64,000 bases of DNA from Nitrospira sp. (lineage in GTDB: Bacteria > Nitrospirota > Nitrospiria > Nitrospirales > Nitrospiraceae), in contig CP060501.1 of assembly GCA_024760545.1 (NCBI GenBank), forward strand, positions 2,331,501-2,395,500. The letters are read 5' to 3'. Positions within the stretch are counted from its first letter, which is position 1; each line of letters opens with the position of its first letter. Shown here piece after piece: positions 21,950 to 42,088 of this stretch. The notes under the pieces are model-generated. The model was not told where the DNA came from, did not search any database, and saw nothing but the letters and a program-made list of their open reading frames with translations. A program made the position numbers and the translations under genes.

Positions 21950-22375
21950 ATGCCATCGCTTGATGTTCAAAACCCCGAAATGCCCGACCTCCAGTTTGTC
22001 CTCTTCGTTGCAGCTCTTTGCACGTCTGATCTGCCGACGCTGAACATCTCGCCGGAGCTCCGGACCACCATTTTTGACCGCTGCTGGGCGCTCATCCACA
22101 CCGAGCCGCCTCCGACGAATCCCAAAGAACGAGTGCTTGACCTTCGAGGAGGAACGGAGCTGACACTCGACGCCTGCGCTTCTACGATCCGATCTCTCTT
22201 CACCGAAGCCAACATTACCACCCTCGTGTGGGACCATCCGGTGAGTGAACCGAGCATGAACAGCTCCCCTGAGGCCCTTCCGCTTATTGATCGCTTGGGG
22301 CGATTGTATCCCGGTGACCCGAACGTCGTCGATCCTTCTCATCAGCCCCCTGGCGGGTCGAATCCAACGCAATGA
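21950..22375 (+). CDS. Hypothetical protein
   Basis: A 141-residue protein starting MPSLDVQNPEMPDLQFVLFV. The middle region (KERVLDLRGGTELTLDACAS, then TTLVWDHPVSEPS) looks alpha/beta with no identifiable motif. No signal peptide is evident. It ends 12 bases before rfbC, so the two are probably co-transcribed. I recognise no family. Confidence 0.5.
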   Translation: MPSLDVQNPEMPDLQFVLFVAALCTSDLPTLNISPELRTTIFDRCWALIHTEPPPTNPKERVLDLRGGTELTLDACASTIRSLFTEANITTLVWDHPVSEPSMNSSPEALPLIDRLGRLYPGDPNVVDPSHQPPGGSNPTQ

Positions 22376-22387
22376 CCAGAGGATACC

Positions 22388-22948: not shown

Positions 22949-23085
22949 CTGAATCCTCACTCTCGGATCGTGTTATACCAGCTGTACCACTGACTTTGCC
23001 GACAAGGACATGGGTCCGGCTGTCCTAGTGACAGCACAACCACGAGTGTGGTATGAGTCCTCGTAACTTCTACCCATATTGGCAC

Positions 23086-23163
23086 GTCCCCATCGTCTAG
23101 CCTGGCCTAGGACATTGCCCTTTCAAGGCAGTAACACGGGTTCAAATCCCGTTGGGGACACCA
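23086..23163 (+). tRNA. tRNA-Glu (TTC)
   Basis: 78 nt with encoded CCA. Acceptor GTCCCCA / TGGGGAC, anticodon loop CTTTCAA giving TTC, T-arm CGGGTTCAAATCCCG. The gene remains whole after integration of the element to its right. The 3' half also encodes, on the opposite strand, the end of the serine integrase. Confidence 0.97.
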
Positions 23164-24786
23164 CTGACCAGGGAGCAGAAATTCTGTAGCTTTTTCAAAG
23201 AGTGGCAGATAGCTTCCGGTTCCGAGAATTCGATACCCCCGCCGTTCCCCGTTCCGAACAATTTCAAATCGTAGCGGCTGATCCAGAAGAGTCCTCAGTA
23301 GCTGGCGAGCCCCGGGCACATGGCGGCTGAGCAGTCCCTGCAGGTCAGCAAGCCGGGATTTGAGTTCCCGTTTTAATCGACCCTCATCTAACGAATCGAT
23401 CGTCGTCTCCCTCTCGGTGAGCTGCTCCAGTTCCTTGGTTAGTTCCACTCGTCTGGCTTCCTCGACCTGCAGTTGCTTGAGGAGAGGATCCATCGCCTGA
23501 CCCTTGCCGATGGCGTCGACGAGATTCTTTTCATAAGCTTCAATCAGAGATAACTCCCGCTCAATGGCAGTCTTTCGATCCAGCTGCGGACCCTGCCCAG
23601 CCCTATGTTTCTCAAGGGCCTTTCTGATCGCCACCTTGATCATGTCTTCGCTCAACGCTTCTTCCAGCGACTTCAGCACAATCTGATCCAGGAATTCTTG
23701 CTCAACCAGGGAAGAGTTCTTACAGATGGATGACCCTCGCTGCTTGTAATACGCGCAGCCGTAGTAACGTCCCTTCTTTCGTTGATAGTCCTGCCCTACA
23801 ATCTGCATCGGTCCTCCGCAATGCCCACAGCGGGCCATCCCGGTAAGCAGATATTTGGATTCGGTGTCTCTGAAAACGGGCTTAGCTTTCTCCTGATTGC
23901 TGGCTAATCTTGCCTCGACATGTGTCCACACCTGCGAGGTGATAATCCTCAGATCTGGTGCATCCATCCGGATGACTTCCTTTTCTGCACGCTGCCGGCG
24001 CCGCTTCGTTCCACCGCGCACGAACTTCTGAAGGCGCCCATAGACAATTTCACCCCGATAGAGTGGCCGATAGAGAATTTCTCGAACGGCACTGGGTGCC
24101 CAGCCACGCGGGCTTCGACGCGGCGCCAGCACCCCTTCCGCATTCAACCGTTTGGCGATTCGCCCAATGCCTAGCCCGCCGGCATACATGTCGAAAATCT
24201 GTCGGACAATCGTCGCCTCTGTTTCGTTCACGACTCGCAATACATGGAGCCGCCGGCCCGCGGATGAGAGGACCTCTTTGTTGTCATATCCGTATACCTT
24301 GCCTCCAGTGACATGGCCGGCCTTCGCCTTCCTGAGCATTGCGTCATAGGTGCGCTGCTTCGCCCGCTCTCGCTCCATTTCTGAAGAGAAGTTCACGAGC
24401 GACAGCATAACCTTATCCATGGCATTGTCGAGTGTGCGTTCCCGGTCCTCCAGATAGAAGAACACGCGGACACCAGCATCAGTGATCCGTTTCAGCGCAT
24501 ATGCCGTTTCAATCTGCTCGCGCCCAAGTCGGGATTCTTCGGACATGATCAGAATCTGAAAGGCCGGGCGAGGACTGAGCGCATTCATCAACCGAGTGAA
24601 GCCCGGCCGCTTCACGAATTCCGCTCCGGATATCCCGTCGTCGACAAAGATATGCTCATCAGAAAGGCCCCAGCCCTTCTTTGCAGCATAAGCCTTTGCA
24701 TGCTCAATCTGTCGGGTTACAGACTTCTCTTCATCGCTCACGCCGTTTTGTTCAGTCGATTTGCGGGCATAGATTGAAGCAATCAT
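23107..24786 (-). CDS. Large serine recombinase (integrase)
   Basis: A 559-residue site-specific integrase. The N-terminal catalytic domain begins MIASIYARKSTEQNGVSDEE with nucleophile Ser10, plus SEESRLGREQIETAYALKRI. The recombinase domain lies near 170-290 (YGYDNKEVLSSAGRRLHVLR). A zinc-ribbon (CGHCGGPMQIVGQDY, later Cys in YGCAYYKQRGSSICKN) and a long coiled coil (about 390-480) follow. The last 57 bases lie in tRNA-Glu, which supplies the final residues (DLNPCYCLERAMS) and stop. Joining the element ends instead gives a 24-residue tail. It overlaps the upstream small gene by 4 nt. Confidence 0.93.
   Translation of the reverse strand: MIASIYARKSTEQNGVSDEEKSVTRQIEHAKAYAAKKGWGLSDEHIFVDDGISGAEFVKRPGFTRLMNALSPRPAFQILIMSEESRLGREQIETAYALKRITDAGVRVFFYLEDRERTLDNAMDKVMLSLVNFSSEMERERAKQRTYDAMLRKAKAGHVTGGKVYGYDNKEVLSSAGRRLHVLRVVNETEATIVRQIFDMYAGGLGIGRIAKRLNAEGVLAPRRSPRGWAPSAVREILYRPLYRGEIVYGRLQKFVRGGTKRRRQRAEKEVIRMDAPDLRIITSQVWTHVEARLASNQEKAKPVFRDTESKYLLTGMARCGHCGGPMQIVGQDYQRKKGRYYGCAYYKQRGSSICKNSSLVEQEFLDQIVLKSLEEALSEDMIKVAIRKALEKHRAGQGPQLDRKTAIERELSLIEAYEKNLVDAIGKGQAMDPLLKQLQVEEARRVELTKELEQLTERETTIDSLDEGRLKRELKSRLADLQGLLSRHVPGARQLLRTLLDQPLRFEIVRNGERRGYRILGTGSYLPLFEKATEFLLPGQWCPQRDLNPCYCLERAMS
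23148..23163. repeat. Left attachment core, tRNA-Glu 3' end
   Basis: CCCGTTGGGGACACCA, identical to 47614-47629. These 16 bases cover the acceptor arm's 3' strand and the CCA end. Flanking bases differ on both sides. Confidence 0.88.
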
Positions 24787-24986
24787 TCGACGGACTCTCC
24801 TGAGAGGACGGCAGTATTCTCCTGTGCGCTGGATCTGTCAATGCTAACTCCTGAAGATAGCTGAGGATATCGCCTGAGATCTTGTAGCACGAGGTCGGCG
24901 AGTAAGTCCGTGATCTGCTCGAAGACATCGTGCGGATAACGACTTCCTCGTCCTTGATCGATGTGTTGGACAACAGGGGCGTTCAT
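24783..24986 (-). CDS. Small hypothetical protein between helicase and integrase
   Basis: A 67-residue frame starting MNAPVVQHIDQGRGSRYPHD and continuing VFEQITDLLADLVLQDLRRY. The start at 24986 follows the helicase stop by a few bases, and the stop overlaps the integrase ATG by 4 nt (ATGA-type), supporting a three-gene operon. The helical middle looks protein-like. The position suggests a recombination directionality or replication accessory factor, but nothing in the sequence proves it. Confidence 0.55.
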   Translation of the reverse strand: MNAPVVQHIDQGRGSRYPHDVFEQITDLLADLVLQDLRRYPQLSSGVSIDRSSAQENTAVLSGESVE

Positions 24987-24990
24987 CGCA

Positions 24991-26313
24991 CTAAGATTCC
25001 AGATCCTCAAACCGCACATACTGTTTCACAAATCCAAGCCGCAGCTCACCCGTTGGGCCATTTCGATGCTTACGGACCAAGATCTCGGCAAGACCCTTAT
25101 CGAGTGATTCTTCGTGGTAGACTTCGTCCCGATACAGCATGAGCACGATGTCAGCATCTTGCTCGATGGATCCACTCTCACGAAGATCAGAGAGAATCGG
25201 GCGCTTACTCTCACGCTTTTCACATTCCCGCGAGAGTTGAGACAGCGTGACGACGGTCACTTCTAGCTCTTTAGCCAGGGACTTCAGACCTCGGGAGATT
25301 TCCGACACCTCGACCTGGCGGCCGTCTCGCTTCCTCACTCCTTCCATGAGTTGGAGATAATCGAGGAAGAGAATATCCACTTGCTTCTTGACCCTGAGCT
25401 GGCGAACCTTCGCTCGTAATCGATCGATGTTGAGCATGCCGGAGTCGTCGTAGTGGATTGGAAGGTTACTGAGTGACATCGCCGAAGTGGCCACCCGGCG
25501 TTTCTCGTCGTCACTCAGCTGCCCATTGTTCAGCGCAAATAGATCCACGCCCGCGTCAATGGCGACCATCCTCATGACCAACTGGCGCCGACTCATTTCG
25601 AGGGAAACAATTGCCACGTTAGACCCTGCACGTGCCGCGGCCATGGCAGCCTGACACATGAGCGAGGTTTTACCCATCGAAGGTCGAGCGGCCATAACCA
25701 CCAAGTCACTCTGTTGCCATCCACCCAACATCCGGTCGAGGGCTATCAATCCTGTAGTGATGCCGCTGATCCTTTCTCCACGGCACTGCATCATCTCGAT
25801 ATGATTCAAGGTCTCGTGAATCACGTCCATGTGCGATTGCCAGACCCGGACCTGCCGCGCCCAACAGGCGTTGTACAGCCGGCGTTCTGCTTCGATCGCA
25901 ATTAGTTCGGAAGACTTCTTCTCCTCGGACCTCGTGAGGATTTCGCGTCCGATGTCGCGTAAGGCCCGCAACACTGAGAGTTCCTTGACCATCCTTATAT
26001 GGGTCTGAATGTTCGAAGCCGATGGCACGGCTAAACTGAGCTCGTTGAGATACGCGAGGCCTCCGATCTCTCGAATCACACCGGCTGACTCCAATTCATT
26101 CGAGACTGCGAGCGGCTCAATCGTGTCATTCCTTCCAGCGACGCGTTTCATCGCGGCAAAAATCTGTTGGTTCCGACGGAAGTACCAATCCTCCTCGCTG
26201 ACCACCTCCGCGACGTCATCGAACGATCCTCCGAGAAGCAGGGCTCCGAGGACAGCCATTTCGATTTCTTCACTATGCGGTGGCAGTGTTGGGAACAGTT
26301 GCGCGTCGCTCAT
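24991..26313 (-). CDS. DnaB-like replicative helicase
   Basis: A 440-residue hexameric 5'-3' helicase. The N-terminal domain starts LPPHSEEIEMAVLGALLLGG. The RecA-like domain has Walker A in AARPSMGKTSLMCQAAMAAA and Walker B in DILFLDYLQLMEG, then SQLSRECEKRESKRPILSDL and SGSIEQDADIVLMLYRDEVY, all DnaB signatures. AAGGAG before the ATG decides start 26313. It overlaps the replication protein upstream by 41 bases. Element-borne DnaB with a DUF1376 protein is a phage-type replication module. Confidence 0.93.
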   Translation of the reverse strand: MSDAQLFPTLPPHSEEIEMAVLGALLLGGSFDDVAEVVSEEDWYFRRNQQIFAAMKRVAGRNDTIEPLAVSNELESAGVIREIGGLAYLNELSLAVPSASNIQTHIRMVKELSVLRALRDIGREILTRSEEKKSSELIAIEAERRLYNACWARQVRVWQSHMDVIHETLNHIEMMQCRGERISGITTGLIALDRMLGGWQQSDLVVMAARPSMGKTSLMCQAAMAAARAGSNVAIVSLEMSRRQLVMRMVAIDAGVDLFALNNGQLSDDEKRRVATSAMSLSNLPIHYDDSGMLNIDRLRAKVRQLRVKKQVDILFLDYLQLMEGVRKRDGRQVEVSEISRGLKSLAKELEVTVVTLSQLSRECEKRESKRPILSDLRESGSIEQDADIVLMLYRDEVYHEESLDKGLAEILVRKHRNGPTGELRLGFVKQYVRFEDLES

Positions 26314-27202
26314 GGTACTCCTTGTGCTCAGCACACAACGGACGCCCGCAGACCTCTGTGATTACGGGCTGCCCGCATAGCTTCAGAGATATTCCACACT
26401 GCACCCGCTCTTGGCACCCTTGCGTCGAAGCAGGCTTGAGATCGATCAGAGTGTCGTAATTTCCGGCTTCGATTTTGTCCAGGTTCGTCGGCGCCAGGGC
26501 CCAATCGAGGGAGGCGTGAAAGGGCGGCTTCCCGCAGTTGGTCCGCCCGCAGAGGAAGTCTGACCCTTGGATGCGCTGGAAGAAAGTTTCCCACCAGGCC
26601 GCGTCCGGATATTGCTTCAGCCGAGCCTGTATGCGTGCTCGGATCGTCGTTCCCAGCGCTTTGCAGAGTTTGACACCAGGAATGGCATTCCAGCGTTGTT
26701 GGACTTCTTCAGGACTCTGCTTGAGCGAAGAGGAGCCCGTGTGTATCTCTCTTTCCTTCCTTCTTGAAGATGGGATTGGGATTGAAGAGTTCGGCTTTTG
26801 TTCAACAGGTGCTGAACGTTTGTTGAACACATGTTCAGTATCATTTGTTCTCTGCTTTAGCCGACTTGCGCCACTTTCTCGACCGGCACGTCTCCGCTCT
26901 TTCTGAATCCGGAGATATTTTTGATGTTCAGCATACAAGCGGATGTTTGTCAGGAATCCAGGCTTCTTTGGATGGGACTCGAACGCCTGTTGAACAGGTG
27001 TTGAACGGGTGCTCCAGTGCTCCCGAAGTTCGGAAAGTGCCGCTAGGATGGCCGGATCATCGGGAAGAGAACAGTCGTCAGTATCCCAACAATGACACAG
27101 CAGATTCATGTAGGCGGCTTGCTGGTCAAGGGCCATGGCGGCGCGCTTCTTACTGGTCAACCAGTCCTTGACGTATAACTGAAATGCGGGTGGACGTCCC
27201 AT
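26273..27202 (-). CDS. DUF1376-type replication initiation protein
   Basis: A 309-residue protein whose first 100 residues (MGRPPAFQLYVKDWLTSKKR, then LDQQAAYMNLLCHCWDTDDC) match the DUF1376/YdaU domain of phage replication initiators. A variable basic linker follows, then a C-terminal part like that of phage O-type proteins (IQGSDFLCGRTNCGKPPFHA, SLDWALAPTNLDKIEAGNYD). The extreme C-terminus adds two Cys pairs with His that could bind zinc. It probably recruits the DnaB-like helicase encoded next. Confidence 0.85.
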   Translation of the reverse strand: MGRPPAFQLYVKDWLTSKKRAAMALDQQAAYMNLLCHCWDTDDCSLPDDPAILAALSELREHWSTRSTPVQQAFESHPKKPGFLTNIRLYAEHQKYLRIQKERRRAGRESGASRLKQRTNDTEHVFNKRSAPVEQKPNSSIPIPSSRRKEREIHTGSSSLKQSPEEVQQRWNAIPGVKLCKALGTTIRARIQARLKQYPDAAWWETFFQRIQGSDFLCGRTNCGKPPFHASLDWALAPTNLDKIEAGNYDTLIDLKPASTQGCQERVQCGISLKLCGQPVITEVCGRPLCAEHKEYHERRATVPNTATA

Positions 27203-27666: not shown

Positions 27667-28899
27667 CTAGAGAATGAAACTGGAACTAACACGACGTCGT
27701 AGTGCTTCGGGCGAAGGTAAGTCTCGATCAGGGTATCGTAGCTGCCACAGGGCTATGATCTGCTGCCATAGAACTCGCGGTATTGCTGTTTTGCTATCCC
27801 AAGATTTTCCTTTCATGTGTGGCCGAATCCGAACGGCCAATGGTCCCGCACATGCTGTCCAGAATCCCTGGCTGGTCGGTGATCCGTCGTAGCGTGTAAT
27901 CCCACCTCTGCCCCAATATGCAGAAGCATGTTTCCTCTTTCGCGATGAACCGTGAGCCGTTTTAGACACTTTCATGAGAAAGGAGAGATCATATGGTGGG
28001 AGATACGTGAGATCCAGGAATTCCCATGCAGTAATTCCCATATTGTTGCTCCAATCTTGCGTCTGCCGAACAAACGATTCTCGCGAGAGCGCCTGCCAAT
28101 GATCAGCTTCACGTATGCACCAGGCCAAAGCAAGAGCGGCACGTCTCCTTCCGGTCAGGTTTCTAGAACTTTCTCGCCATCTCGCGTTGAACGATTCTTG
28201 AAGCGGTACGGGAAGATCGCCTACCAGGTCCTTCCATAAGTTATTGCGACTTTGGACCCACCAGAAGCTCATGAGAAATGTTCTTGGGAGATGTCCACAC
28301 TCCTTGCAGCTATTTACAAGGTAATCATTGACAGCATATTCCTTATCGCCATTTGGAAGAAACTTGCTGACACTATGTGTGGGCTCCGAATCGTGTCGAA
28401 GTGATAACATCCCTTCCAATTCCTCAACTGGAGGTAGCTTTCGTGTGAGGATATTGGGGGCAGTAAATCGATCGGCCGATTGCTCTTCAGTAACTGATTC
28501 CACTCGACAGCCATCACATTGCTGATTCGAATTGCGGCGCGACCGGTCAAAGAAAAACCTCCGGCACTTCTTGCATCCCTTCAGGCGCCGCGGTTGTGAA
28601 GAGCATAGCCATGCATTCAATGCTTTTTGAAGCTCTGTTCGCTCATCTCCTTCTTTCTTGTAGAGTTTATTGAACAAGCTTTTGGCTTGTTTTAACCCAT
28701 GCCTCCTCAAGCTCAGCACTACCACTCTTGCGTTCTTATCCCGGGCGTACAGTGAATTAAGAACTAGGAGCAGGCGTGGCAGGGCCAAAGTCCCATACAC
28801 AGTGTTTCGAAGAAGGGGCGGGCGGGTTTTGTCCAAAGGTCTCCTATCCTGAATAGGATCCTGGATCGAGGAGTGGAGGCACGGATGCCAGGAACGCAC
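27667..28899 (-). CDS. Unknown protein with a zinc-finger-like Cys cluster
   Basis: A 410-residue protein from a GTG. A cluster near residues 108-132 (LKGCKKCRRFFFDRSRRNSN, then QQCDGC) gives a CxxC...CxxC finger reminiscent of CGNR-type zinc fingers. A second pair lies in VNSCKECGHLPRTF. The remainder is basic and Trp-rich with no enzymatic motif that I recognise. Base composition is more AT-rich than neighbouring genes, suggesting separate origin. No ribosome binding site is evident at the GTG. A regulator or defence sensor is possible but unproven. Confidence 0.5.
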   Translation of the reverse strand: MRSWHPCLHSSIQDPIQDRRPLDKTRPPLLRNTVYGTLALPRLLLVLNSLYARDKNARVVVLSLRRHGLKQAKSLFNKLYKKEGDERTELQKALNAWLCSSQPRRLKGCKKCRRFFFDRSRRNSNQQCDGCRVESVTEEQSADRFTAPNILTRKLPPVEELEGMLSLRHDSEPTHSVSKFLPNGDKEYAVNDYLVNSCKECGHLPRTFLMSFWWVQSRNNLWKDLVGDLPVPLQESFNARWRESSRNLTGRRRAALALAWCIREADHWQALSRESFVRQTQDWSNNMGITAWEFLDLTYLPPYDLSFLMKVSKTAHGSSRKRKHASAYWGRGGITRYDGSPTSQGFWTACAGPLAVRIRPHMKGKSWDSKTAIPRVLWQQIIALWQLRYPDRDLPSPEALRRRVSSSFIL

Positions 28900-29135: not shown

Positions 29136-30047
29136 ATGATCCGTTTTAAGCGGTTGACGACACAACATCTCGATGCGTGGTTGGTTGACCAACGCATTGT
29201 CAGTACCCATGCGAATTACCGATTGAGGGTCTGGCGCGAGAATCGTCCTGGTCTGGCAGCGATTCGATCTGAGCTAATCGCCTACATCGAGGAAGCAATC
29301 GATGATGCACGTCGACGGATCCGGTGTGGATTTGAGGACAGCCTATCACCATTCAATGACCCCATGACAGATCCAGCAGCGAACTACCCCGCGCAACTTC
29401 ATCGCATTACGTTGCAGGGATATTGGGGAGAAACCCTCGCGGCTCTTGCGGTCGAGCACTGGGGTGCTCACGGCAATACGGATTGGAGCATTCCAGCCTT
29501 TCTCTTCCGGATGCACGAACAGGAATTTCAGCACCTTGATGCTATCAACGAGCGCCTTCTCACTGGTGAGGCCTATGAGGCCGATTCCATTGCTGAACGG
29601 CGTCCTGGCCGCACTGGTGATGACGGTCTCGCATTTCGAAAAAACGGTGAGAACGCCATCACCGAAGTTCTGGTGATTGAGGCGAAGTGCCTTGATGCAA
29701 ATAACAATGAGAAGATCAAGGAAGCGCATGAGAAGCTTGCAGCTGGCGGGGTGAGACCATCGGGCGTCCGGGAACTTATCAATCTTCTTGAGGAGTATGC
29801 CACGCCTGATGCCCAGGCATGGCAGGAAGCGTTGCTCAAGTTATGGCGAGATGGTTATCGGGTCGCAATACGCCACGACGCGATTGGATATACGTGTGGG
29901 AGTGTTCCAACTCGGGGTAGGCGTGTGGCTTGGTTACCTGGAGATGCACCCCATGCAGCCTACACTGCGTCGCGAAGACTAGAAGGGATGGAATTTCAAT
30001 TCGAAGACCTGGCTACTATTATCGACACTCTCTACCGAGGTGCCTGA
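29136..30047 (+). CDS. PD-(D/E)xK nuclease-like protein, HamA/AbpA-like partner
   Basis: A 303-residue protein. I read a nuclease core as Glu99 in QGYWGETLAALAVEHWG, Asp162/163 in RTGDDGLAFRKNGENAITEV, and Glu182-x-Lys184 in LVIEAKCLD. That order and spacing fit the PD-(D/E)xK fold. It directly precedes a large Ski2-like helicase, with the stop one base before that gene's ATG. This two-gene layout matches Hachiman (HamA DUF1837 nuclease plus HamB helicase) and AbpAB. The exact family needs profile comparison. Likely role: DNA cleavage in anti-phage defence. Confidence 0.65.
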   Translation: MIRFKRLTTQHLDAWLVDQRIVSTHANYRLRVWRENRPGLAAIRSELIAYIEEAIDDARRRIRCGFEDSLSPFNDPMTDPAANYPAQLHRITLQGYWGETLAALAVEHWGAHGNTDWSIPAFLFRMHEQEFQHLDAINERLLTGEAYEADSIAERRPGRTGDDGLAFRKNGENAITEVLVIEAKCLDANNNEKIKEAHEKLAAGGVRPSGVRELINLLEEYATPDAQAWQEALLKLWRDGYRVAIRHDAIGYTCGSVPTRGRRVAWLPGDAPHAAYTASRRLEGMEFQFEDLATIIDTLYRGA

Positions 30048-30048
30048 G

Positions 30049-33000
30049 ATGGCAAATGCAGCCACTATTGAAGTTGCGAGGGGCATCCGTCATAGCCTAG
30101 CAGGTAGCGCACTCACCGGGAGACAAGCCAAGCTCTACAGTCAACGTTTGCGTCGTGACATGGGTCGTGACGGTCTAGCAAGCTTTTTGCCCGGCGATGT
30201 TGACGCCTTTCTAGATGAGGCTATGCTCCTGTTGCACTGCGGCCTACTTGAAAGGCGCGACAATCGGTCGAGCGCCTGGCGGGATGCGATCAAGCGCGCA
30301 GCGGAAATCCTGGAGTGGTTATCACAATCCAGCCTCAAGCCTCCCGAGGCACCCTTGCATCTTCTTGCTGCGGCTGCATATCAGCTAGCGGACTATCCAG
30401 CTATGGCACTCGGCCACCTCCGTCATGTTCCAGACAATCAACCGGTTTCTGTCATGCTACGCGAATTACTACGGGCCGATTTCCCAGCAGCACTCAAAGC
30501 GGTGCACGATTTCTGGCTCAAACAATTAGCTCTTGGAGGAACAGACCCAACCGCGCCATTAGATCTCACAATCGACACGTTTAAGCATGTTGTCATGTGT
30601 TTAGGAACAATATGCACCTACCTACGGACCGGCGATGGAATGACGGATCGTGCGCTCGTAAAGCTTGAGAAGCTTGCGGCGAGCCTCCTCCACAGCCACG
30701 ATCCTTACTCCTATCTCCTTGCCATGCTGACAGCTACAAGCTGCCGACAATTTGTTGAAACCTGTCTGTGGCCACAGGTTGAGCGTCTCAGTGAAGGCTC
30801 CACAAGCGCAGCTCGCGAGGCATTCATCCAGTTTGCACGATCCGCCTTTGTTAACCGCCGCGCACTCATCTGGCCGGCGCAAGCTGCTGGCATCGAACGC
30901 CTGCCTGAGAACTCCTCGTTCGTTCTCTGCACACCGACTGGATCCGGCAAGACAACCGTCGCCACTCTGGCTGTGGTACAGGGCTTGTTCGCCGCCCCTC
31001 CAGAAAACTCGCTCGACCTTTCTGAATTTGGGCTGGGAAACCTAGTCCTCTACATTGTGCCCTCACGCGCACTTGCAGCTGAAGTCGAGGGTCGTCTTGC
31101 ACAGGATCTAAAAGGGATTGGTGCAGCCCCGATCGTCGTCACGGGACTATACGGCGGTGTCGACTGGGGCCCAACCGATGCATGGATACAAACAGGTACG
31201 GCTACCATCGTTATTTGCACGTTCGAGAAAGCGGACGCCCTGATGCGATATCTTGGGGTCTTTTTCCTTGCCCGTGTCCGCTTGGTGGTCATTGATGAAG
31301 CTCACATGGTCGAACAAGATCGAGTTCGTGTTGGTGGGCTTGAAGATGGCTCTTCACGCGCATTCCGTCTCGAACAGCTCGGTGCGCGTCTGCTTAGGGC
31401 CCGTAACAATTACGGTTTTAGAGTACTAGCGCTCTCTGCCGTTGCGGCTCGCGCAGCTCCGGCCTTAGCCCGATGGATTTCCAACTCACCTCATGCAGTT
31501 CCGACGACATCGTCCTACCGCAGCACCCGACAAATGCTTGGCCGACTGGAGGTAAGCGCCGGAGGCCAGTACACCATCCGTTATGATTTGATGGATGGGC
31601 GATCCCTTAAGTTCGACGACGAACGCCCGGATGATACACCTTTTGTCCGCAGTCCCTTCCCTCCGTTGCCTGGTGGTATCAACGGAGAAGAGGGGCCCGA
31701 GGTACGCATGCGCGCTCCGACCCTCTGGGCTGCCTTACAACTCGCTGCTGAACGGCAAGACGGATCGAAACCGTCCGTTCTAATCTCATTGACGCAGAAC
31801 GTTGAAGCATTTTCCGCAACATGCGCAGACCTCATGGATCGTTGGTCAGAGAATGAGCTGCCAAACTATCGAGCCTTAGACGAGACCAATGACCTATGGG
31901 TTCGATGTCTCGCCAGCGCAGAGGATTACTTCACGGTTCAATCTATAGAGTATCGACTGCTTCGTCGCGGAGTAGCCGTCCATCATGGAAAAATGCCTGG
32001 CCTTCTCGCCAGACGGCTCAAGGCTGTTATCGACCAAGGTCTTGTACGGATCATCATCGCAACTTCGACGCTTTCGGAAGGCGTCAATATTCCCGTGAGT
32101 TTCTTGCTGATCCCTAGTGTTTGTCGTGGCTCGGCCGTAATGAGCCTGCAAGAATTTACAAATCTTATTGGTCGAGCTGGCCGTCCTGGCGTTTCCTCCG
32201 AGGGTAGCGCGCTTGTCGTCCTGCCTGAGAGGCTCGTGACACGTAATCCCAAAGGCCGCCCGCGACTGACTTCCAGCCGGCAATGGAAGGGCTATGAAGG
32301 TTTGGTAGCTGGCATCGAGGAGACAACCATGGCCTCAAGGGATGGGGCGCCGGAGGATGCAGCATCAAGTCCGCTTGCTCACCTGCTTCGTGCCCTCGAA
32401 GCCGCATGGGTACAACTAACAGGCGGTGGTACCCACGAGCACTTTATGACATGGCTCGAACGCACGGCTGTCATTGGCGATGATGGAGAAGCAGGATTGG
32501 CCTATAGATATCTGGACACCCTGGATTCCTTCCTAATCGCAGCGATTCAAGAGGTCGAGGATTTGCAGCTCGCGGAGTTGGCAACTGAGCAGCTTGAGGC
32601 GGAACTCACCGCTATTTGGCGCCGAACATATGCATTCGCTTCAGTCCATGAGGAGGAACGCCTGGCCGAGATTTGGTTTGCGCGAGGGCGTGTGATCAAA
32701 GCACATTATCCGGAGGCAACCCAGCGACGTCGCATCTACAAAACAAGTTTGTCACCAAGGTCGGCGAGGAGTCTTTTGGATCTTGTCGACACCGCTCGAG
32801 CTACTCTTGAAAGCGGTGCTGGTTATTCACGATGGACGTCCGAACAACGATTTACCTTTATTCGTGATGTAGTGGCTCTTTTGTCTCAGGTGCCTTCTTT
32901 TAAAATCTCAACCACCCTCGGTAGACGTCGGAATTTCCACGACTGGCCAAGACTGTTGCGTTGGTGGCTTGCAAAACCTAGCTTGTCAGTCCTGCCAGTA

Positions 33001-33636
33001 CCAGGAGAGATCACAACATGGTATGAGTTTGTCGCACAGAATTTCGTTTACCGAAGTGCGTGGGGGCTAGGAAGCCTGATCGGTCTTCTCTTGGATGCAG
33101 GTCAAGGTGAACGGCCGATTCGCGCCCTTGAGATCAGTGACTGGCCTCGAAGCGGCCTGCCCTGGATTGCTTTCTGGATGAAGGAATTGATTACCTGGGG
33201 CACGCTCGATCCCGTTGCTGCATTCTTACTCGCCCGAGGAGACGCCATTGATCGTCCTCGAGCCGAGGAGCTAGCTCGTAGCTACTATGACAGCTTTCCT
33301 GAAGGCGCCGACCCCAACGAAGTGTTGGATCCCAGGACAGTGCGTGACTGGGTCGACGTTCGACGCATTCCTCCAGAAGAGTCTCGGACAGTCCGAGAGT
33401 TGTTCATCGCCAGCGATCTTGTTCGCCCAGTCTCTGAATATCAACAGTCTCGCCTTATGGTTTCGCCGCTTGAGCATGAGGACCGGCTGAGTTGGATTGA
33501 CTCCGCCGGCTATATTGTTGCGCAGAGCGAAAAGCCCGTTGACTGGCCTGATAATTTCTCGACTTTCGAGTTCGAGCTTAACGTTCCAGATAGAAGAATT
33601 GTGGGCAATCCATATCTCCGATACGCGCAACAGTGA
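30049..33636 (+). CDS. Ski2-like DEAH helicase, HamB/AbpB-like
   Basis: A 1195-residue superfamily 2 helicase. A helical N-terminal region of about 290 residues precedes the motor: Walker A in CTPTGSGKTTVATL near 295, motif II in VVIDEAHMVEQDR near 413, motif III in LALSAVAARA, and motif VI in SLQEFTNLIGRAGRPGV near 705. A 450-residue C-terminal region follows without known motifs. The ATG at 30049 (GAGG upstream) is preferred to a GTG at 30040. It is the motor partner of the nuclease gene upstream; together they look like a self-contained defence system. Confidence 0.8.
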   Translation: MANAATIEVARGIRHSLAGSALTGRQAKLYSQRLRRDMGRDGLASFLPGDVDAFLDEAMLLLHCGLLERRDNRSSAWRDAIKRAAEILEWLSQSSLKPPEAPLHLLAAAAYQLADYPAMALGHLRHVPDNQPVSVMLRELLRADFPAALKAVHDFWLKQLALGGTDPTAPLDLTIDTFKHVVMCLGTICTYLRTGDGMTDRALVKLEKLAASLLHSHDPYSYLLAMLTATSCRQFVETCLWPQVERLSEGSTSAAREAFIQFARSAFVNRRALIWPAQAAGIERLPENSSFVLCTPTGSGKTTVATLAVVQGLFAAPPENSLDLSEFGLGNLVLYIVPSRALAAEVEGRLAQDLKGIGAAPIVVTGLYGGVDWGPTDAWIQTGTATIVICTFEKADALMRYLGVFFLARVRLVVIDEAHMVEQDRVRVGGLEDGSSRAFRLEQLGARLLRARNNYGFRVLALSAVAARAAPALARWISNSPHAVPTTSSYRSTRQMLGRLEVSAGGQYTIRYDLMDGRSLKFDDERPDDTPFVRSPFPPLPGGINGEEGPEVRMRAPTLWAALQLAAERQDGSKPSVLISLTQNVEAFSATCADLMDRWSENELPNYRALDETNDLWVRCLASAEDYFTVQSIEYRLLRRGVAVHHGKMPGLLARRLKAVIDQGLVRIIIATSTLSEGVNIPVSFLLIPSVCRGSAVMSLQEFTNLIGRAGRPGVSSEGSALVVLPERLVTRNPKGRPRLTSSRQWKGYEGLVAGIEETTMASRDGAPEDAASSPLAHLLRALEAAWVQLTGGGTHEHFMTWLERTAVIGDDGEAGLAYRYLDTLDSFLIAAIQEVEDLQLAELATEQLEAELTAIWRRTYAFASVHEEERLAEIWFARGRVIKAHYPEATQRRRIYKTSLSPRSARSLLDLVDTARATLESGAGYSRWTSEQRFTFIRDVVALLSQVPSFKISTTLGRRRNFHDWPRLLRWWLAKPSLSVLPVPGEITTWYEFVAQNFVYRSAWGLGSLIGLLLDAGQGERPIRALEISDWPRSGLPWIAFWMKELITWGTLDPVAAFLLARGDAIDRPRAEELARSYYDSFPEGADPNEVLDPRTVRDWVDVRRIPPEESRTVRELFIASDLVRPVSEYQQSRLMVSPLEHEDRLSWIDSAGYIVAQSEKPVDWPDNFSTFEFELNVPDRRIVGNPYLRYAQQ

Positions 33637-34657: not shown

Positions 34658-34905
34658 TGGGAAGTAGTATCCCTCACACCTGCATGGCCGGGACAGCTGC
34701 TTTGTACCGGTTGCCTGTCAAAATCTCCATCTGCTGTACCTCCACCGGCCCGCGGTGCCTCTCACACATGCCTCCAATGTGCCCATGTACCCACAAGGAA
34801 GTCTGGGTGATTTCTCGCAGTGAAAACGGGTATTCTGCGCAGACAAATGTGCTGCTTATCCTGGCATATTAAGTGCCCGATAAAGGCCGTGTTTCCCCTT
34901 TCTCC

Positions 34906-36405
34906 ATGAACAATATGCCTGTCACCCTGGGCCAGCTTGAATCCCATCTTTGGGAAGCCGCCAACATCCTTCGTGGGACGGTGGATGCTGCCGATTTCAA
35001 GACGTATGTGTTTCCCCTTCTCTTCTTCAAGCGTATCTCCGATGTCCACGACGAGGAATACGAGGCGGCGCTGAAGGAGTCAGGGGGAGACGAAGCCTAC
35101 GCGCTCTTTCCCCAAAATTACCGATTCCAGATCCCGGATCATTCACACTGGAGCGATGTTCGAATTAAGACGGTGAATGTCGGTCAAGCGTTGCAGACCG
35201 CGATGCGCAGGATCGAGAAGGCCAATCCTGAAACCCTCTATGGGATCTTCGGCGATGCCGCATGGACGAATAAAGAACGATTGCCCGATTCTCTCTTGCG
35301 CGATCTCATTGAACATTTCTCTCGCATTAACCTTGGCAATCAGGCGGCGCAGGCGGATGTCCTCGGACAGTCCTACGAATACCTGATCAAAAAATTCGCC
35401 GATCTCACGAACAAGAAGGCCGGAGAGTTTTACACGCCGCGTTCGGTCGTCAAGTTGATGGTCAATATTCTGGATCCAAGGCAGGGCGAGTCTATCTACG
35501 ATCCAGCGTGCGGGACGGGCGGTATGTTGTTGGAGGCCATCCACCATGTTCGTGAACGCAACGAGGATGACCGCACGCTGTGGGGTAAGTTGTTCGGGCA
35601 GGAGAAGAACCTGACGACTTCTGCCATTGCCCGCATGAATCTCTTCTTGCATGGCGCGGCAGACTTCCAAATCGTGCGAGGGGATACCTTACGCCAGCCG
35701 GCATTTTTCTCCGGTGACAATCTCGCGACTTTTGACTGCGTCATCGCCAATCCCCCGTTCTCACTTGAGAAGTGGGGGGAGGAAGTCTGGTCCAGCGATC
35801 CGTATGGCCGAAACTTCGCTGGGATGCCGCCAGGTAAGACCGGGGACTATGCCTGGGTGCAGCACATGGTTAAGTCCATGGCCCCGGGGACCGGTCGTAT
35901 GGCAGTTGTTCTTCCGCACGGCGCCCTATTCCGCATGGGCAAGGAAGGCGCGATTCGGAAAAAGATTCTGGGCATGGACTTGATCGAAGCCGTCATTGGA
36001 CTTGGCCCGAACTTGTTCTATGGCACAGGTCTCGCCGCCTGCATCCTTGTTTTTCGGCAGAGGAAGAAGAGAGATAGGAAGGGGAAGGTGCTCATCCTTG
36101 ATGCTTCCCACCAGTTCAAGACTGGCCGGGCGCAGAACGAACTTCTGCCCGAGCACGTCGAACGGATTTACGGCTGGTATCGCGACTATAAAGATGTGGA
36201 AGGTGTCGCCCGCGTAGTCACACTCGACGAGATCGTAGCCAATGACCACAACCTGAACATTCCCCGCTACGTTGAGCCAAAGAATGAACAGGAAGTGCTG
36301 ACGGTAGAAGAAGCCATGAAACGCTTAAAGGGCAGTGCCGAGGCCGCTTTTGCGGCGGAAGCTAAACTGATTACCATCCTGAAACGGGAAGGTCTTCTGC
36401 TATGA
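34906..36405 (+). CDS. hsdM: Type I restriction system, HsdM methyltransferase subunit
   Basis: A 499-residue N6-adenine methyltransferase. The N-terminal helical domain starts LGQLESHLWEAANILRGTVD. The AdoMet motif I DPACGTGGMLLEA is near residue 199 and the catalytic NPPF motif near 281. The start is uncertain: ATG at 34906 or 34915 fits the family, while a GTG at 34873 also lies in frame. It overlaps the next gene by 4 nt (ATGA). That next gene carries a second M domain, so this stand-alone M probably pairs with the fusion protein. Confidence 0.92.
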   Translation: MNNMPVTLGQLESHLWEAANILRGTVDAADFKTYVFPLLFFKRISDVHDEEYEAALKESGGDEAYALFPQNYRFQIPDHSHWSDVRIKTVNVGQALQTAMRRIEKANPETLYGIFGDAAWTNKERLPDSLLRDLIEHFSRINLGNQAAQADVLGQSYEYLIKKFADLTNKKAGEFYTPRSVVKLMVNILDPRQGESIYDPACGTGGMLLEAIHHVRERNEDDRTLWGKLFGQEKNLTTSAIARMNLFLHGAADFQIVRGDTLRQPAFFSGDNLATFDCVIANPPFSLEKWGEEVWSSDPYGRNFAGMPPGKTGDYAWVQHMVKSMAPGTGRMAVVLPHGALFRMGKEGAIRKKILGMDLIEAVIGLGPNLFYGTGLAACILVFRQRKKRDRKGKVLILDASHQFKTGRAQNELLPEHVERIYGWYRDYKDVEGVARVVTLDEIVANDHNLNIPRYVEPKNEQEVLTVEEAMKRLKGSAEAAFAAEAKLITILKREGLLL

Positions 36406-39104
36406 CCACCCATATCACCCAACAGCAGCTTGAATCCTATCTCTGGGGCGCTGCCTCGCTTCTACGAGGAACCATTGATGCGGGCGACTACAAGCAGTTC
36501 ATCTTTCCGCTGCTGTTTTATAAGCGCCTGTGCGATGTATTCGACGAAGAGACGCAGGCCGCTCTCAAGGAATCTGGCGGTGACGCCGAATTTGCCGGCT
36601 TCCCGGAAAACCACCGATTCCAGATTCCGGCAGAGGCGCACTGGAAGGAAGTCAGGAAGGTGGCCAAGAATGTTGGGCTGGCACTCCAGTCTGCGATGCG
36701 TGCCATCGAAACCGCCAATCCCGATAAGCTCTATGGCATTTTCGGCGACGCCCAGTGGACGAACAAAGATCGTTTGTCCGATGCCATGCTGCGAGACCTC
36801 ATCGAGCATTTCAGTACCCTGGAACTGACGCTTGTGAATCTTCCTGAAGATGAACTAGGCCAGGGTTACGAATATCTCATCAAGAAGTTTGCCGACGATT
36901 CCGGCCACACCGCAGCCGAGTTTTATACCAACCGGACCGTTGTCCACCTCATGACTGAGATGCTTGAGCCAGAGCCAGGCGAGACTATCTATGACCCCAC
37001 CTGCGGCTCCGGCGGGATGCTGCTCTCTTGCATCGCCCATCTGCGCCGGCAAGGGCAGGAGTGGAGAAACGTGAAGCTCTATGGTCAAGAGCGAAATCTC
37101 ATGACCTCCTCCATTGCCAGAATGAATTGTTTCCTCCATGGCATCGAGGATTTTCAGATTGTGCGTGGTGATACCCTTTCAGAGCCGAAGCTCGTCCAGG
37201 GCGATCGGCTCATGCAATTCGATGCCGTCCTCGCCAATCCGCCGTATTCCATCAAACAGTGGGACCGCGAGACCTTCACTGCTGACCCCTGGGGGCGCAA
37301 TCTGTACGGCACTCCGCCACAGGGCCGTGCCGACTACGCCTTTTGGCAACATATCCTGTGCAGTCTCGCCCCCAAGACTGGCCGCTGTGCGATTCTGTTT
37401 CCGCACGGAGTGCTCTTCCGTCAAGAAGAAGCCGAGATGCGGCGCAAGTTGATTGAAGCCGATACCATCGAGTGCGTGCTCGGCCTCGGACCAAATCTCT
37501 TCTATAACTCTCCGATGGAAGCCTGCGTCGTCATCTGTCGTGCGAGCAAGCCCAAGGCGCACAAAGGCAAGATTCTGTTCATCAATGCCGTGAATGAAGT
37601 CACCCGAGAGCGGGCTCAAAGCTTCCTGACAGACGACCATATCGAACGCATTGTCAAAGCTTACAAGAAGTTCAAAGACGAACCGGGCTTCACGCGTGTG
37701 GCGACGTTGGAGCAAATTCGCGTCAAGGACGGCAGTCTCAGCATCCCTCTCTATGTGGAAGGAGCCACAACCAACGGCAATCTCCCGACGACACAAACGT
37801 CTTCATTGGCAGAGGCATTGAATGGGTGGATGAAGTCGCGTGGCGAGGTTGCTGAGACTCTGACGAAGATTCTGCCGAAATCACAATCGCCTAGGCTGGG
37901 AGCTCTTTTGCGCGGCAGCGATGTCTGTGAGCTGATTAAAGGTAGGAGCAAGTGGACACGAGTCCGCTTTGGTGACCTGGTGGAAAACCTCAACGAGACG
38001 GAACGCGATCCCGCCGGTGCAGGTCTAGAGCGATTCATAGGACTGGAACATCTGGAGCCAGGTTCTCTGCATGTCCGTTCGTGGGGCAATGTGGCTGATG
38101 GTACGACGTTCACTCGCCGTTGCCGACCGGGACAGGTGCTCTTCGGAAAGCGCCGAGCCTATCAGCGGAAGGTGGCGGTAGCCGAGTTTGATGCCGTGGT
38201 GTCAGGTGACATTTATGTGCTTGCTCCGAAAGACGACCACCTCTTGCCAGAGCTTTTGCCCTTCCTTTGTCTTTCTGAGAGATTCTTCCAGCATGCTGTC
38301 GGAACTTCTGCTGGCTCACTCTCGCCTCGCACAAATTGGACCAGCCTAGCCAGTTATGAGTTCAACCTCCCGCCTCTCGACCAGCAGCGCCGTATCGCGG
38401 AAATCTTTTGGGCAGTGGATGAGGTCGTCACGAAAACATATGCTGCTTCAGAGGATGCAACCGCTGTCGTCGAAGCGGAGCTAGACAAATTTCTCTACCA
38501 CAGTCCAAGTTGGCGAATCGCTGAAAGCCGTAACTTATTGGCGGAAGGACCGCGCAATGGTTTCTCCCCTCCTGCTAACCCAAGCAGTGGTCGAGTCCCG
38601 ACGCTAAGTATCAGCGCCATTCGTGGAGGGAAAGTTGTGCCGAATGGTAGCTTGAAATACTCCGATGTCAGCGACGAAACAGTAGCACAATTCAGACTCC
38701 GCCGAGACGATATTCTTATCGTCCGTGGAAACGGAAACCGCTTGCTTTGTGGTCGTGCAGGAATCGTGGAGGACTTTCCAAAAGGCTGTTTCTATCCTGA
38801 TTTGCTCATTCGACTTCGTTTCCGAGACGATTGTCTGCTGCCTGCGTTTGCCGTGATGCAATGGAATGAGCGAAAGACTCACAAACGCTTGCTCAGGAAA
38901 GCCAAGTCTTCGAACGGCATTTACAAAATCAACGGGCAGGATATTCAGTCGCATCAACTTGTCGTGCCCCCAATCGAAGAGCAGAAGCGATTTCTTGAGA
39001 GCATGAGTACGAAGAACGCTGTCACGGATGCTCTAGACTACTCGGTAACCAACGCTGTGAAATTTCAAAGCTCCCTCATCAACACGATTTTTACTAGGCC
39101 ATGA
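36402..39104 (+). CDS. HsdM-HsdS fusion protein
   Basis: A 900-residue fusion. Residues 1-480 are a second M subunit: QQQLESYLWGAASLLRGTID, motif I DPTCGSGGMLL near 197, catalytic NPPY near 278. From about 515 a full specificity subunit follows with two target-recognition halves: KWTRVRFGDLVENLNETERD leading to LPPLDQQRRIAEIFWAVDEV, then SWRIAESRNLLAEGPRNGFS leading to VVPPIEEQKRFLESM. S subunits are normally separate. Four-base overlaps join it to hsdM and hsdR. It should set the DNA target sequence and place one M subunit per complex. Confidence 0.9.
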   Translation: MTTHITQQQLESYLWGAASLLRGTIDAGDYKQFIFPLLFYKRLCDVFDEETQAALKESGGDAEFAGFPENHRFQIPAEAHWKEVRKVAKNVGLALQSAMRAIETANPDKLYGIFGDAQWTNKDRLSDAMLRDLIEHFSTLELTLVNLPEDELGQGYEYLIKKFADDSGHTAAEFYTNRTVVHLMTEMLEPEPGETIYDPTCGSGGMLLSCIAHLRRQGQEWRNVKLYGQERNLMTSSIARMNCFLHGIEDFQIVRGDTLSEPKLVQGDRLMQFDAVLANPPYSIKQWDRETFTADPWGRNLYGTPPQGRADYAFWQHILCSLAPKTGRCAILFPHGVLFRQEEAEMRRKLIEADTIECVLGLGPNLFYNSPMEACVVICRASKPKAHKGKILFINAVNEVTRERAQSFLTDDHIERIVKAYKKFKDEPGFTRVATLEQIRVKDGSLSIPLYVEGATTNGNLPTTQTSSLAEALNGWMKSRGEVAETLTKILPKSQSPRLGALLRGSDVCELIKGRSKWTRVRFGDLVENLNETERDPAGAGLERFIGLEHLEPGSLHVRSWGNVADGTTFTRRCRPGQVLFGKRRAYQRKVAVAEFDAVVSGDIYVLAPKDDHLLPELLPFLCLSERFFQHAVGTSAGSLSPRTNWTSLASYEFNLPPLDQQRRIAEIFWAVDEVVTKTYAASEDATAVVEAELDKFLYHSPSWRIAESRNLLAEGPRNGFSPPANPSSGRVPTLSISAIRGGKVVPNGSLKYSDVSDETVAQFRLRRDDILIVRGNGNRLLCGRAGIVEDFPKGCFYPDLLIRLRFRDDCLLPAFAVMQWNERKTHKRLLRKAKSSNGIYKINGQDIQSHQLVVPPIEEQKRFLESMSTKNAVTDALDYSVTNAVKFQSSLINTIFTRP

Positions 39105-42088
39105 GCTTCACCGAAGCAAATACCGTCGAACAGATGATTCTTGATGCGGTCACCAAACACGGTGGCCGTGAGTTACCGCTGGCTGCTGAGACCCCGGCTC
39201 CCGGCTGGGGCGTTTCGCTCGGTGGGGAGTTGAAGCCGGCGCACTGGGATTATGTTCCCGCTCTCCAGATTCCTCGCCAGAGTGGCGATGTGATGGTCGA
39301 ACAATGGGTGCGCGAGGCGCTCATCCGGCTCAATCCAGAAATTGCCGCTCAACCAGATCGTGCCGATGAGGTCATCTACCACCTCCGCGCTTGCATTCTT
39401 TCCGTTCAGGCTGATGGTTTGGTCCGAGCCAACGAGAATTTCATGGCTTGGGTGCGTGGCGAGAAGACGATGCCTTTTGGTCTTCATGGTGAGCACGTTA
39501 CGGTGCGACTCGTGGACGTTACCCAGCCATCCAATAATCGGCTGACTGTCGCGAATCAATGGACCTACGTCATTGGGACTGTAACAAAGCGGTTTGATGT
39601 GGTGTTCCTCGTGAATGGTTTACCGGTCGTCATTGGGGAAGCAAAGACACCGACAAGGAGTTCGGTCACTTGGTTCGATGGCGCGTTTCAGGTCAACCAG
39701 ATTTATGAGAAGACGATCCCGGCCATGTTCGTGCCGAACGTCTTCTCGTTTGCCACAGAGGGGCGGTGCTACCGGTACGGCTCCATCCGCATGCCGATCG
39801 AGATGTGGGGGCCGTGGCGTGATGAACAGAATCAAGTCGAGGGACAGCTTCACCACGTCAAGGCCACTGTTCAAAGTATGATCCGGCCCGCCGTGGTCCT
39901 CGACATTCTGCAGAACTTCACCTTGTTTGCGACGGACAAAAAACACCGGCGGATCAAAATTATCTGCCGCTACCAGCAATACGAGACGACAAACAAGATC
40001 GTAGCCCGGGTCGTGGCAGGTTACCCAAAGAAGGGACTGATCTGGCACTTTCAGGGCAGCGGCAAATCCCTCCTCATGGTCTTTGCTGCACAGAAGTTAC
40101 GCCTGCATCCGACGTTGGGAAACCCGACTGTGATGATCGTGGTGGACCGGATTGACCTTGATACTCAGATCACGGCCACGTTCAACGCAGCCGACGTGCC
40201 GAACATGGTTGGCGTCGCAACTCGACAAGAATTGCAGAGCCTACTTGGGCAGGACGTCCGCAAAGTGCTGATCACGACGATTCATAAGTTTGCCGAGGCG
40301 GGTGGGAAGCTGAACGAGCGATCCAATATCATTGTCATGGTGGACGAAGCGCACCGCACGCAGGAGGGTGACCTAGGACGCAAGATGCGCGAGGCCTTGC
40401 CGAACGCATTCCTCTTCGGTCTCACGGGCACGCCTATTAACCGTATCGACCGCAACACGTTCTGGGCGTTTGGCGCAGACGAGGATGAAAAGGGCTACAT
40501 GAGCCGGTACTCGTTTGAAGAGTCCATCAGGGACAAAGCCACCTTGCCGCTGCATTTTGAGGCCCCGGAAGTACGGCTGAAGATTGATAAGGCGGCGATC
40601 GATGAGGCGTATGCCAGGATTACGGGCGAGCTGAGTGAGCAAGATCGTGATGACCTCGCGAAACGTGCCGCCAAGATGGCGGTGTTGGTGAAGAATCCCG
40701 AGCGTGTGCGGGCGGTGGTCAATCACATTGTGACGCATTTCCAGACAAAGGTTGAGCCGAATGGATTCAAGGCACAGGTTGTGACCTTCGACCGGGAATG
40801 TTGTGTGCTCTATAAGCAGGTCATGGACGAGTTGATCGGTCCCGAAGCGAGCGCCATCGTCATGATCAGCCAGTCCAGCGATCCTCCAGAGTGGAAGCAG
40901 CACGCTCGCAATAAAGATGAGGAAGAAAAGCTGCTCGACCGGTTCCGTGATCCAAGCGACCCGCTCAAGTTTGTAATTGTCACAAGCAAGCTCCTGACCG
41001 GTTTTGATGCGCCTATCCTTCAGGTGATGTATCTCGACAAGCCCATGAAGGACCACAATTTATTGCAGGCCATCTGCCGAACGAATCGAACTTATGGCCA
41101 AGAGAAGACCCATGGCCTTATCGTGGATTACATCGGCATTTTTGATGATGTGGCGAAGGCCCTCGCTTTCGATGAGAAAGCGGTGCAGCAGGTTGTTTCT
41201 AATATTGACGAACTGCGGAAAGCGTTGCCGGTACAGATGCAGTCCTGTTTGGCTTTCTTCCCCAATGTGGACCGGACGGTCGGCGGGTATGAAGGCCTGA
41301 TGGCTGCCCAGCAATGTCTGCCGAACAACGATGTGCGTGACAAGTTCGCCTCTGAATACTCAACGCTCGGCACGATTTGGGAAGCGCTTTCACCTGATCC
41401 AGGTCTTCTCCCTTATGAAAAGGATTATCGCTGGTTGACTCAGGTGTACGAGTCCGTGAAGCCGCCAAGCGGAAACGGCAGACTCCTGTGGCACGCGCTC
41501 GGAGCGAAGACAGTGGAGTTAATTAACGAGAATGTCCATGTGGAGTCCGTGAGAGATGATGTAGAGAGTTTGATTCTCGATGCGCAAATGCTCGAAGAAT
41601 TCATCAAGAAGAGTGGACCTGAAAAACGGGCGAGGGAAGTCGAAATCAAGTTGGTCACGCGGCTCCAGAAACATCGGGGTAATCCAAAATTTACGGCGCT
41701 CGGTGAACGACTGGAAAAGATCAAGGAGCGTCATGAACAAGGTCTACTCACCAGCATAGAGTTTCTCAAACAGATTCTTGATCTTGCGAAGGAAGTGGTT
41801 GAGGCGGAGAAGGAAACCGACCGAGAAGAGGAGCGCGACCGAGCCAAAGAGGCGCTTACGGAGCTGTTTTCAGAAGCGAAGACTCAGAACACGCATATCA
41901 TCGTCGAGCGTATCGTGGCCGATATCGACGACATCGTGAAGAAAGTACGTTTCCCGGACTGGCAGCAGACGACGCAAGGTGAACGGTTGGTGCAAAAGGA
42001 GCTACGCCGGACCTTGCTCAAGTACAAGCTACATACCGACCAAGAGCTATTCGATAAAGCCTATGGCTACATTCGACAGTACTACTAA
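39101..42088 (+). CDS. hsdR: Type I restriction system, HsdR translocase-nuclease
   Basis: A 995-residue subunit that translocates DNA and cleaves it away from unmethylated sites. The N-terminal nuclease has KRFDVVFLVNGLPVVIGEAK with the Asp...Glu-x-Lys core near residue 180. The helicase has Walker A in WHFQGSGKSLLMVFAAQKLR near 317, DEAH in VMVDEAHRTQEGDLG near 414, and later VTSKLLTGFDAPILQVMYLD. The C-terminal part is helical (KETDREEERDRAKEALTELF), typical for contact with the M subunits. Length is normal. It closes the hsd operon, and two hairpins follow. Confidence 0.95.
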   Translation: MSFTEANTVEQMILDAVTKHGGRELPLAAETPAPGWGVSLGGELKPAHWDYVPALQIPRQSGDVMVEQWVREALIRLNPEIAAQPDRADEVIYHLRACILSVQADGLVRANENFMAWVRGEKTMPFGLHGEHVTVRLVDVTQPSNNRLTVANQWTYVIGTVTKRFDVVFLVNGLPVVIGEAKTPTRSSVTWFDGAFQVNQIYEKTIPAMFVPNVFSFATEGRCYRYGSIRMPIEMWGPWRDEQNQVEGQLHHVKATVQSMIRPAVVLDILQNFTLFATDKKHRRIKIICRYQQYETTNKIVARVVAGYPKKGLIWHFQGSGKSLLMVFAAQKLRLHPTLGNPTVMIVVDRIDLDTQITATFNAADVPNMVGVATRQELQSLLGQDVRKVLITTIHKFAEAGGKLNERSNIIVMVDEAHRTQEGDLGRKMREALPNAFLFGLTGTPINRIDRNTFWAFGADEDEKGYMSRYSFEESIRDKATLPLHFEAPEVRLKIDKAAIDEAYARITGELSEQDRDDLAKRAAKMAVLVKNPERVRAVVNHIVTHFQTKVEPNGFKAQVVTFDRECCVLYKQVMDELIGPEASAIVMISQSSDPPEWKQHARNKDEEEKLLDRFRDPSDPLKFVIVTSKLLTGFDAPILQVMYLDKPMKDHNLLQAICRTNRTYGQEKTHGLIVDYIGIFDDVAKALAFDEKAVQQVVSNIDELRKALPVQMQSCLAFFPNVDRTVGGYEGLMAAQQCLPNNDVRDKFASEYSTLGTIWEALSPDPGLLPYEKDYRWLTQVYESVKPPSGNGRLLWHALGAKTVELINENVHVESVRDDVESLILDAQMLEEFIKKSGPEKRAREVEIKLVTRLQKHRGNPKFTALGERLEKIKERHEQGLLTSIEFLKQILDLAKEVVEAEKETDREEERDRAKEALTELFSEAKTQNTHIIVERIVADIDDIVKKVRFPDWQQTTQGERLVQKELRRTLLKYKLHTDQELFDKAYGYIRQYY

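Follow-up and report, generated by a model that had tools for sequence, protein, structure and literature searches.

On contig CP060501.1 of Nitrospira sp., a gene for a PD-(D/E)xK-like nuclease is followed directly by one for a large Ski2-like helicase. The initial annotation of the stretch of 64,000 nucleotides that we analyzed (hereafter, the window) likened this pair to both Hachiman and AbpAB, saw it as not clearly either, and guessed at a divergent subtype. To which system, if any, do these genes belong, and how would their products act? Homology of the helicase to HamB and of the nuclease to HamA, the conserved catalytic residues and the strict pairing of the two genes bear out that guess. 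On the basis of sequence comparisons and a predicted fold, the pair very probably belongs to the Hachiman (HamAB) anti-phage system as a divergent subtype.

The gene pair and its helicase

Both genes lie on one strand and adjoin in the order HamA then HamB, as in Hachiman (Table 1). Both are intact, and the helicase ORF, which ends at 33636, encodes 1195 residues from the ATG at 30049 (automatic ORF calling places the start at a GTG, position 30040). A single base separates the nuclease stop codon from this ATG (TGA-g-ATG). The 303-residue nuclease with E99, D162/D163 and E182-x-K184, the 1195-residue helicase behind it, and the tight junction in HamA-HamB order were all located as initially described, and the order is kept in 15 relatives. 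Promoter and terminator scans at the locus gave chance-level results only.

Table 1. Coordinates of the nuclease-helicase pair, its sequence motifs and the edge of the surrounding island in the window
Feature	Position	Strand	Basis or remark
Divergent HamA-family PD-(D/E)xK nuclease, 303 aa	29136..30047	+	ORF, family profile, hhalign, model
E99 of G-x-x-GE motif	29430..29432	+	Invariant in variant and canonical HamA
Enlarged loop, residues 126-160	29511..29615	+	Joint alignment; equivalent to the HamA 102-117 loop contacting HamB (PMC12278908)
D163, catalytic Asp (by homology)	29622..29624	+	Invariant in alignments
E182-A-K184, ExK active site	29679..29687	+	Invariant; aligned to HamA E138-x-K140
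HamB-family Ski2-like helicase, 1195 aa	30049..33636	+	PADLOC HamB1; family profile to 8vx9_B
N-terminal region corresponding to the helical bundle (NAH) by which HamB binds HamA	30049..30903	+	Collinear profile match from 54; length like canonical HamB
Walker A TGSGKT	30937..30954	+	Canonical HamB here: TSAGKT/TSSGKT
Walker B DEAH	31294..31305	+	Canonical long HamB: DEGH
Helicase motif VI GRAGRPG	32170..32190	+	Alignment
tRNA-Glu, edge of the mobile island carrying the pair	23086..23163	+	
Island-encoded large serine recombinase; overlaps tRNA-Glu	23107..24786	-	Pfam Resolvase, Recombinase and Zn ribbon

The best PADLOC match of the window helicase was HamB1 (PDLC00174; 196 bits, over residues 256-1123), and a second profile (PDLC00192) covered residues 61-506. 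When the single sequence was queried against the PDB with phmmer, HamB (8vx9_B, 1174 aa) came first (E 7.1e-26, 93.4 bits); SLH1 was nearly level, but its match was only local. A profile of seven variant helicases again placed 8vx9_B at the top (201 bits, E 2.4e-58), in a collinear alignment of residues 54-1013 to 53-990 that included the N-terminal domain. SLH1 was the next helicase found with this profile, matched over the core only at 152 bits, 49 bits below HamB.

The N- and C-terminal regions, of 290 and 450 residues, had been thought oversized for HamB, a concern that the known proteins dispel. In the 1174-residue HamB of ECOR31, the helicase core occupies residues 286-731 (PMC12278908); about 285 residues before the core and 443 after it are therefore the normal HamB layout. 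The canonical long HamBs that we aligned have about 300-390 residues before Walker A and 447-484 after motif VI, and the complete variant helicases have 297-347 and 462-497, respectively. Profile collinearity and the lengths of both ends indicate that the window protein possesses the N-terminal bundle of HamB as well as a C-terminal region that extends far past the Ski2 core. As judged from its sequence, the helicase is a HamB.

The wider kinship of this helicase raises another reading, namely a pair related to Hel308/Ski2 that serves the host in DNA repair or plasmid maintenance by processing stalled forks or breaks. Hel308 and SLH1/Brr2 were the next helicase matches, and HamB itself resembles Hel308 (PMC12278908). 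However, the collinear match takes in the N-terminal domain that HamBs have and related Ski2 helicases lack (PMC12278908), and the partner nuclease is HamA-like. The window helicase reached 69.4 bits with the NCBIfam Hel308 equivalog, the cut-off of which is 1200.

Homology of the nuclease to HamA

Taken singly, the window nuclease matched no Pfam, NCBIfam or PADLOC family (nothing up to E 1 with PF08878 or the PADLOC HamA models), single-sequence phmmer against the PDB returned noise only, and none of the 13 variants scanned one by one passed the Pfam HamA model (DUF1837, PF08878) at its cut-off. Relatives came from tblastn searches of plasmids, a scan of genome contigs and other Nitrospirota genomes. 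When a profile of 13 nuclease sequences without any annotated HamA was searched against all 177,635 PDB sequences, HamA (8vx9_A) was the best match (E 2.3e-5). This profile aligned E182-x-K184 of the window protein with E138-x-K140 of HamA, and the mutant PDB chain E138A/K140A scored 9 bits lower (E 0.012). In 395 Nitrospirota genomes it recovered a canonical HamA (E 2e-4) that is independently known from a PF08878 search. Reciprocally, canonical HamA HMMs gave 14-37 bits for all 15 variants and no more than 5.5 for 1,517 decoys; with the profile of long-HamB-type HamAs, the window nuclease obtained 15.8 bits against 15.8-16.1 for accepted short-HamB-type HamAs (L020/L021). Alignment of the variant and HamA profiles with hhalign yielded a probability of 98.7 (E 2.8e-16, 255 columns), and all controls, 13 unrelated and 6 shuffled, stayed below 2. 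Residues E99, D163, E182 and K184 were invariant both in the 13-sequence variant alignment and among 24 joint sequences of variants and canonical HamAs.

These profile, HMM and hhalign tests are independent of any fold model, and by their evidence the nuclease is homologous to HamA. The profile comparison that had been proposed for both proteins thus succeeded outright for the helicase (196 bits), while the nuclease found HamA through the family profile and not singly. Judging from these comparisons, the real divergence of the pair lies in the nuclease, which goes undetected by the Pfam, NCBIfam and PADLOC HamA models; we assign it to Hachiman as a divergent member through profile, fold and pairing and not through the PF08878 or PADLOC HamA cut-off. 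In databases, members of the sister nuclease group (L006, L009 and other Rhizobiales plasmid relatives) go under the names 'aminotransferase', as some do in RefSeq, or 'hypothetical protein'. A canonical HamA of Candidatus Manganitrophus (L043) is annotated as a SAVED protein, next to a HamB ORF cut to 553 aa.

Structure prediction pointed in the same direction. An AlphaFold model from five variant-only sequences had a pLDDT of 36 and was discarded; an eight-row alignment, three rows of which were canonical HamAs from viral contigs, gave a pLDDT of 74.6 and a pTM of 0.77. When this model was compared with the PDB by Foldseek, the only significant matches were two HamA chains (8vx9_A, E 1.8e-5), and a Foldseek comparison with viral structures returned nothing. 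VIA matched the model to HamA with a Z of 18.8 over 246 residues and to the HamA-like part of AbpA with a Z of 12.4. Everything else stayed at Z <5, including other PD-(D/E)xK nucleases (MspJI, FokI and Shedu), which were rejected as fold matches. For the nuclease half of the structure check that had been suggested earlier, the outcome is a predicted fold that matches HamA, and not the lack of a DUF1837-like fold that would have spoken against the assignment. Because the canonical HamA rows help the model, it supports a HamA fold and adds to the sequence evidence but cannot stand in for it.

The resemblance of the model to AbpA also bears on the possibility of an AbpAB-type system, in which the nuclease would act via a Cap4-like domain and its HamA-like part would be inactive. 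It is the C-terminal domain of AbpA that matches. Against this, the 303-aa protein can be aligned with HamA over its full length, without any additional nuclease domain at the N-terminus, and its D-ExK residues are invariant, unlike the HamA-like domain of AbpA, which lacks catalytic activity (PMC12278908); the single window helicase sequence scored 23.8 bits with AbpB versus 93.4 with HamB. We consider such a system hardly credible: of the two likenesses first noted, that to Hachiman holds and that to AbpAB is far more distant.

Strict pairing on mobile DNA

The two genes stood side by side in all 15 loci examined, which span several phyla and include plasmids (from Nitrospira, Methylocaldum, a Bryobacterales MAG, Nitrobacter, Rhizobium, Paracoccus, Leisingera, Calothrix and two IMG/VR contigs), always with a HamB of one clade, and this conserved adjacency excludes pairing by chance. 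On a plasmid of Calothrix sp. PCC 6303 (L005:5983-10686), the variant nuclease and helicase form a single polypeptide of 1567 aa, which argues for a physical complex. Many relatives reside on conjugative plasmids. Among Nitrospirota, the pair occurs in 4 of 395 genomes and is absent from a same-species genome. Its neighbours vary and many are defence genes, namely a type I RM system in the window and Lamassu LmuB, ABC-3C, AbiH and AbiE at the loci of relatives. This patchy distribution, the conjugative plasmids and the defence-gene neighbours also count against a housekeeping role in repair or plasmid maintenance, which we regard as very unlikely. No third conserved gene was found beside the pair, tblastn against phage records retrieved no relative, and viral contigs scanned with three queries, namely the helicase, the sister nuclease of Nitrospira (L028) and HamA (L023), yielded no match.

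Within the window, the pair sits between the tRNA-Glu/large serine recombinase module and a resolvase followed by the type I RM operon. The same-species genome (G320) shares the recombinase end (21955-24948) at 86.5% identity and also the resolvase, with other genes in between, and lacks HamAB at the corresponding site; the pair is cargo of the tRNA-Glu mobile island. DnaB-like helicase and DUF1376 genes come after the recombinase; together with the tRNA-Glu (23086-27202) they mark a phage-like integrative island, the cargo of which (HamAB here) differs in the same-species genome. The type I RM operon (34873-42088) encodes two HsdM-type proteins, one of 510 aa and one of 900 aa that carries a fused specificity domain, and then HsdR. 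Upstream of the pair, positions 27667-28899 on the minus strand encode a 410-aa protein with a Cys-rich zinc-ribbon-like motif, which has no family match and is not kept beside the pair elsewhere.

Further observations concern the host and its congeners. An amoC gene (ammonia/methane monooxygenase subunit C; 51405-52214, minus strand) indicates a comammox Nitrospira, and nxr-like genes, identified by eye, adjoin the pair in a congener. The same genome carries a second, canonical Hachiman (C1:879524; L020:7336-10894) with a 318-aa HamA and a short, 867-aa HamB. In another Nitrospira (L028:1102-12214), the pair comes directly after genes for an HmaB-like methylase and an SNF2/PLD-type helicase, 75 bases apart, and the four genes possibly form one unit. 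In a further congener (L026:6769-7794), the nuclease frame leaves the family after residue 288, probably owing to a frameshift or assembly error near the C-terminus.

A divergent Hachiman and its proposed mode of action

In the HamAB of ECOR31, HamB carries out surveillance and is activated by 3' DNA ends and ATP hydrolysis, after which HamA is released, DNA is cleared and infection is aborted (PMC12278908). By homology with this E. coli system, the N-terminal helical bundle of the window HamB would bind the nuclease and hold it inactive. A 3' single-stranded DNA end, arising from phage replication or DNA damage, would enter the helicase as the trigger, and ATP hydrolysis would then shift the bundle and free the nuclease. 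The freed enzyme would degrade the DNA of phage and host alike, and the infected cell would die without releasing phage. The intact catalytic residues suggest an effector role for the nuclease, in which it would differ from AbpA and from the protease-fused HamAs (PMC12799240).

What sets the variant apart lies in both proteins. In the joint alignment, R125 and the invariant G161 are separated by 35 residues in the window group, by 26 in the sister groups and by 10 in canonical HamA, an excess of 16-25 residues in the docking loop. In the complex from ECOR31, it is with the corresponding loop (102-117) that HamA touches the N-terminal domain of its HamB (PMC12278908). The sister plasmid group of nucleases has a further insertion downstream of ExK. 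The variant helicases carry TGSGKT, DEAH and STL(S/T)EG, whereas long canonical HamBs mostly have TSAGKT, DEGH and (P/T)TL(S/A/G)QG. The 15 variant HamBs form one clade (SH-aLRT 100) apart from 12 HamBs beside recognised HamAs, in a tree without outgroup that was rooted for drawing only and from which we claim neither a nested nor a sister position relative to canonical HamB. As the variant HamBs are a separate clade and the nuclease loop differs, nuclease and helicase have diverged together, and the enlarged docking loop has probably co-evolved with its own HamB clade, leaving the two proteins matched within the subtype.

Do these differences alter function? It seems rather doubtful that the clade represents a Hachiman subtype of distinct function, in which enlarged loop and altered motifs confer another activation trigger or another restraint on the nuclease. 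Equally, a Hachiman-related pair might use the same parts with a different trigger or substrate, as the extra residues in the HamB-contacting loop, the replacement of TSAGKT and DEGH and the separate HamB clade could indicate; but every catalytic and helicase motif that the known mechanism needs is present, and canonical HamA and HamB subfamilies differ equally, with the accepted HamAs L020/L021 at 16 bits and the window nuclease at 15.8 bits with the long-type profile. We judge this unlikely, and favour a divergent Hachiman that would act like the known one. The family is thereby widened to a nuclease group missed by Pfam, NCBIfam and PADLOC models, and better defence annotation would follow in nitrifiers, rhizobia and cyanobacteria. 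In addition, the difference in the interface loop, together with the natural fusion, offers a direct test of the restraint of HamA by HamB.

Compared with the HamAB of ECOR31 (PDB 8vx9; PMC12278908), the window pair agrees in the order of the genes, their tight junction, the length and domain layout of HamB, an end-to-end HamA fold and the invariant GE, D and ExK residues. On the other hand, HamA identity is about 14-15%, the docking loop is longer, Walker A TGSGKT, DEAH and motif V STL(S/T)EG stand where ECOR31 has TSAGKT, DEGH and PTLAQG, and the helicase core is about 40 residues longer. PADLOC HamB1 PDLC00174 and PDLC00192 are the best profiles for the helicase and cover most of it; since none of the PADLOC HamA models matches the nuclease, detection that needs both genes probably misses the locus. 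AbpAB (PDB 8zue) likewise combines a nuclease with a Ski2-like helicase, and the HamA-like C-terminal domain of AbpA shares the fold; unlike in the window pair, the N-terminal part of AbpA is a Cap4-like nuclease, its HamA site is dead, and AbpB is short (729 aa). Finally, the protease-fused Hachiman HamMAB (PMC12799240) is, like our pair, a Hachiman variant marked by a change in HamA, but whereas HamMAB lost the HamA active site and gained the pro-nuclease HamM, the window pair has kept its active-site residues and has no conserved third gene.
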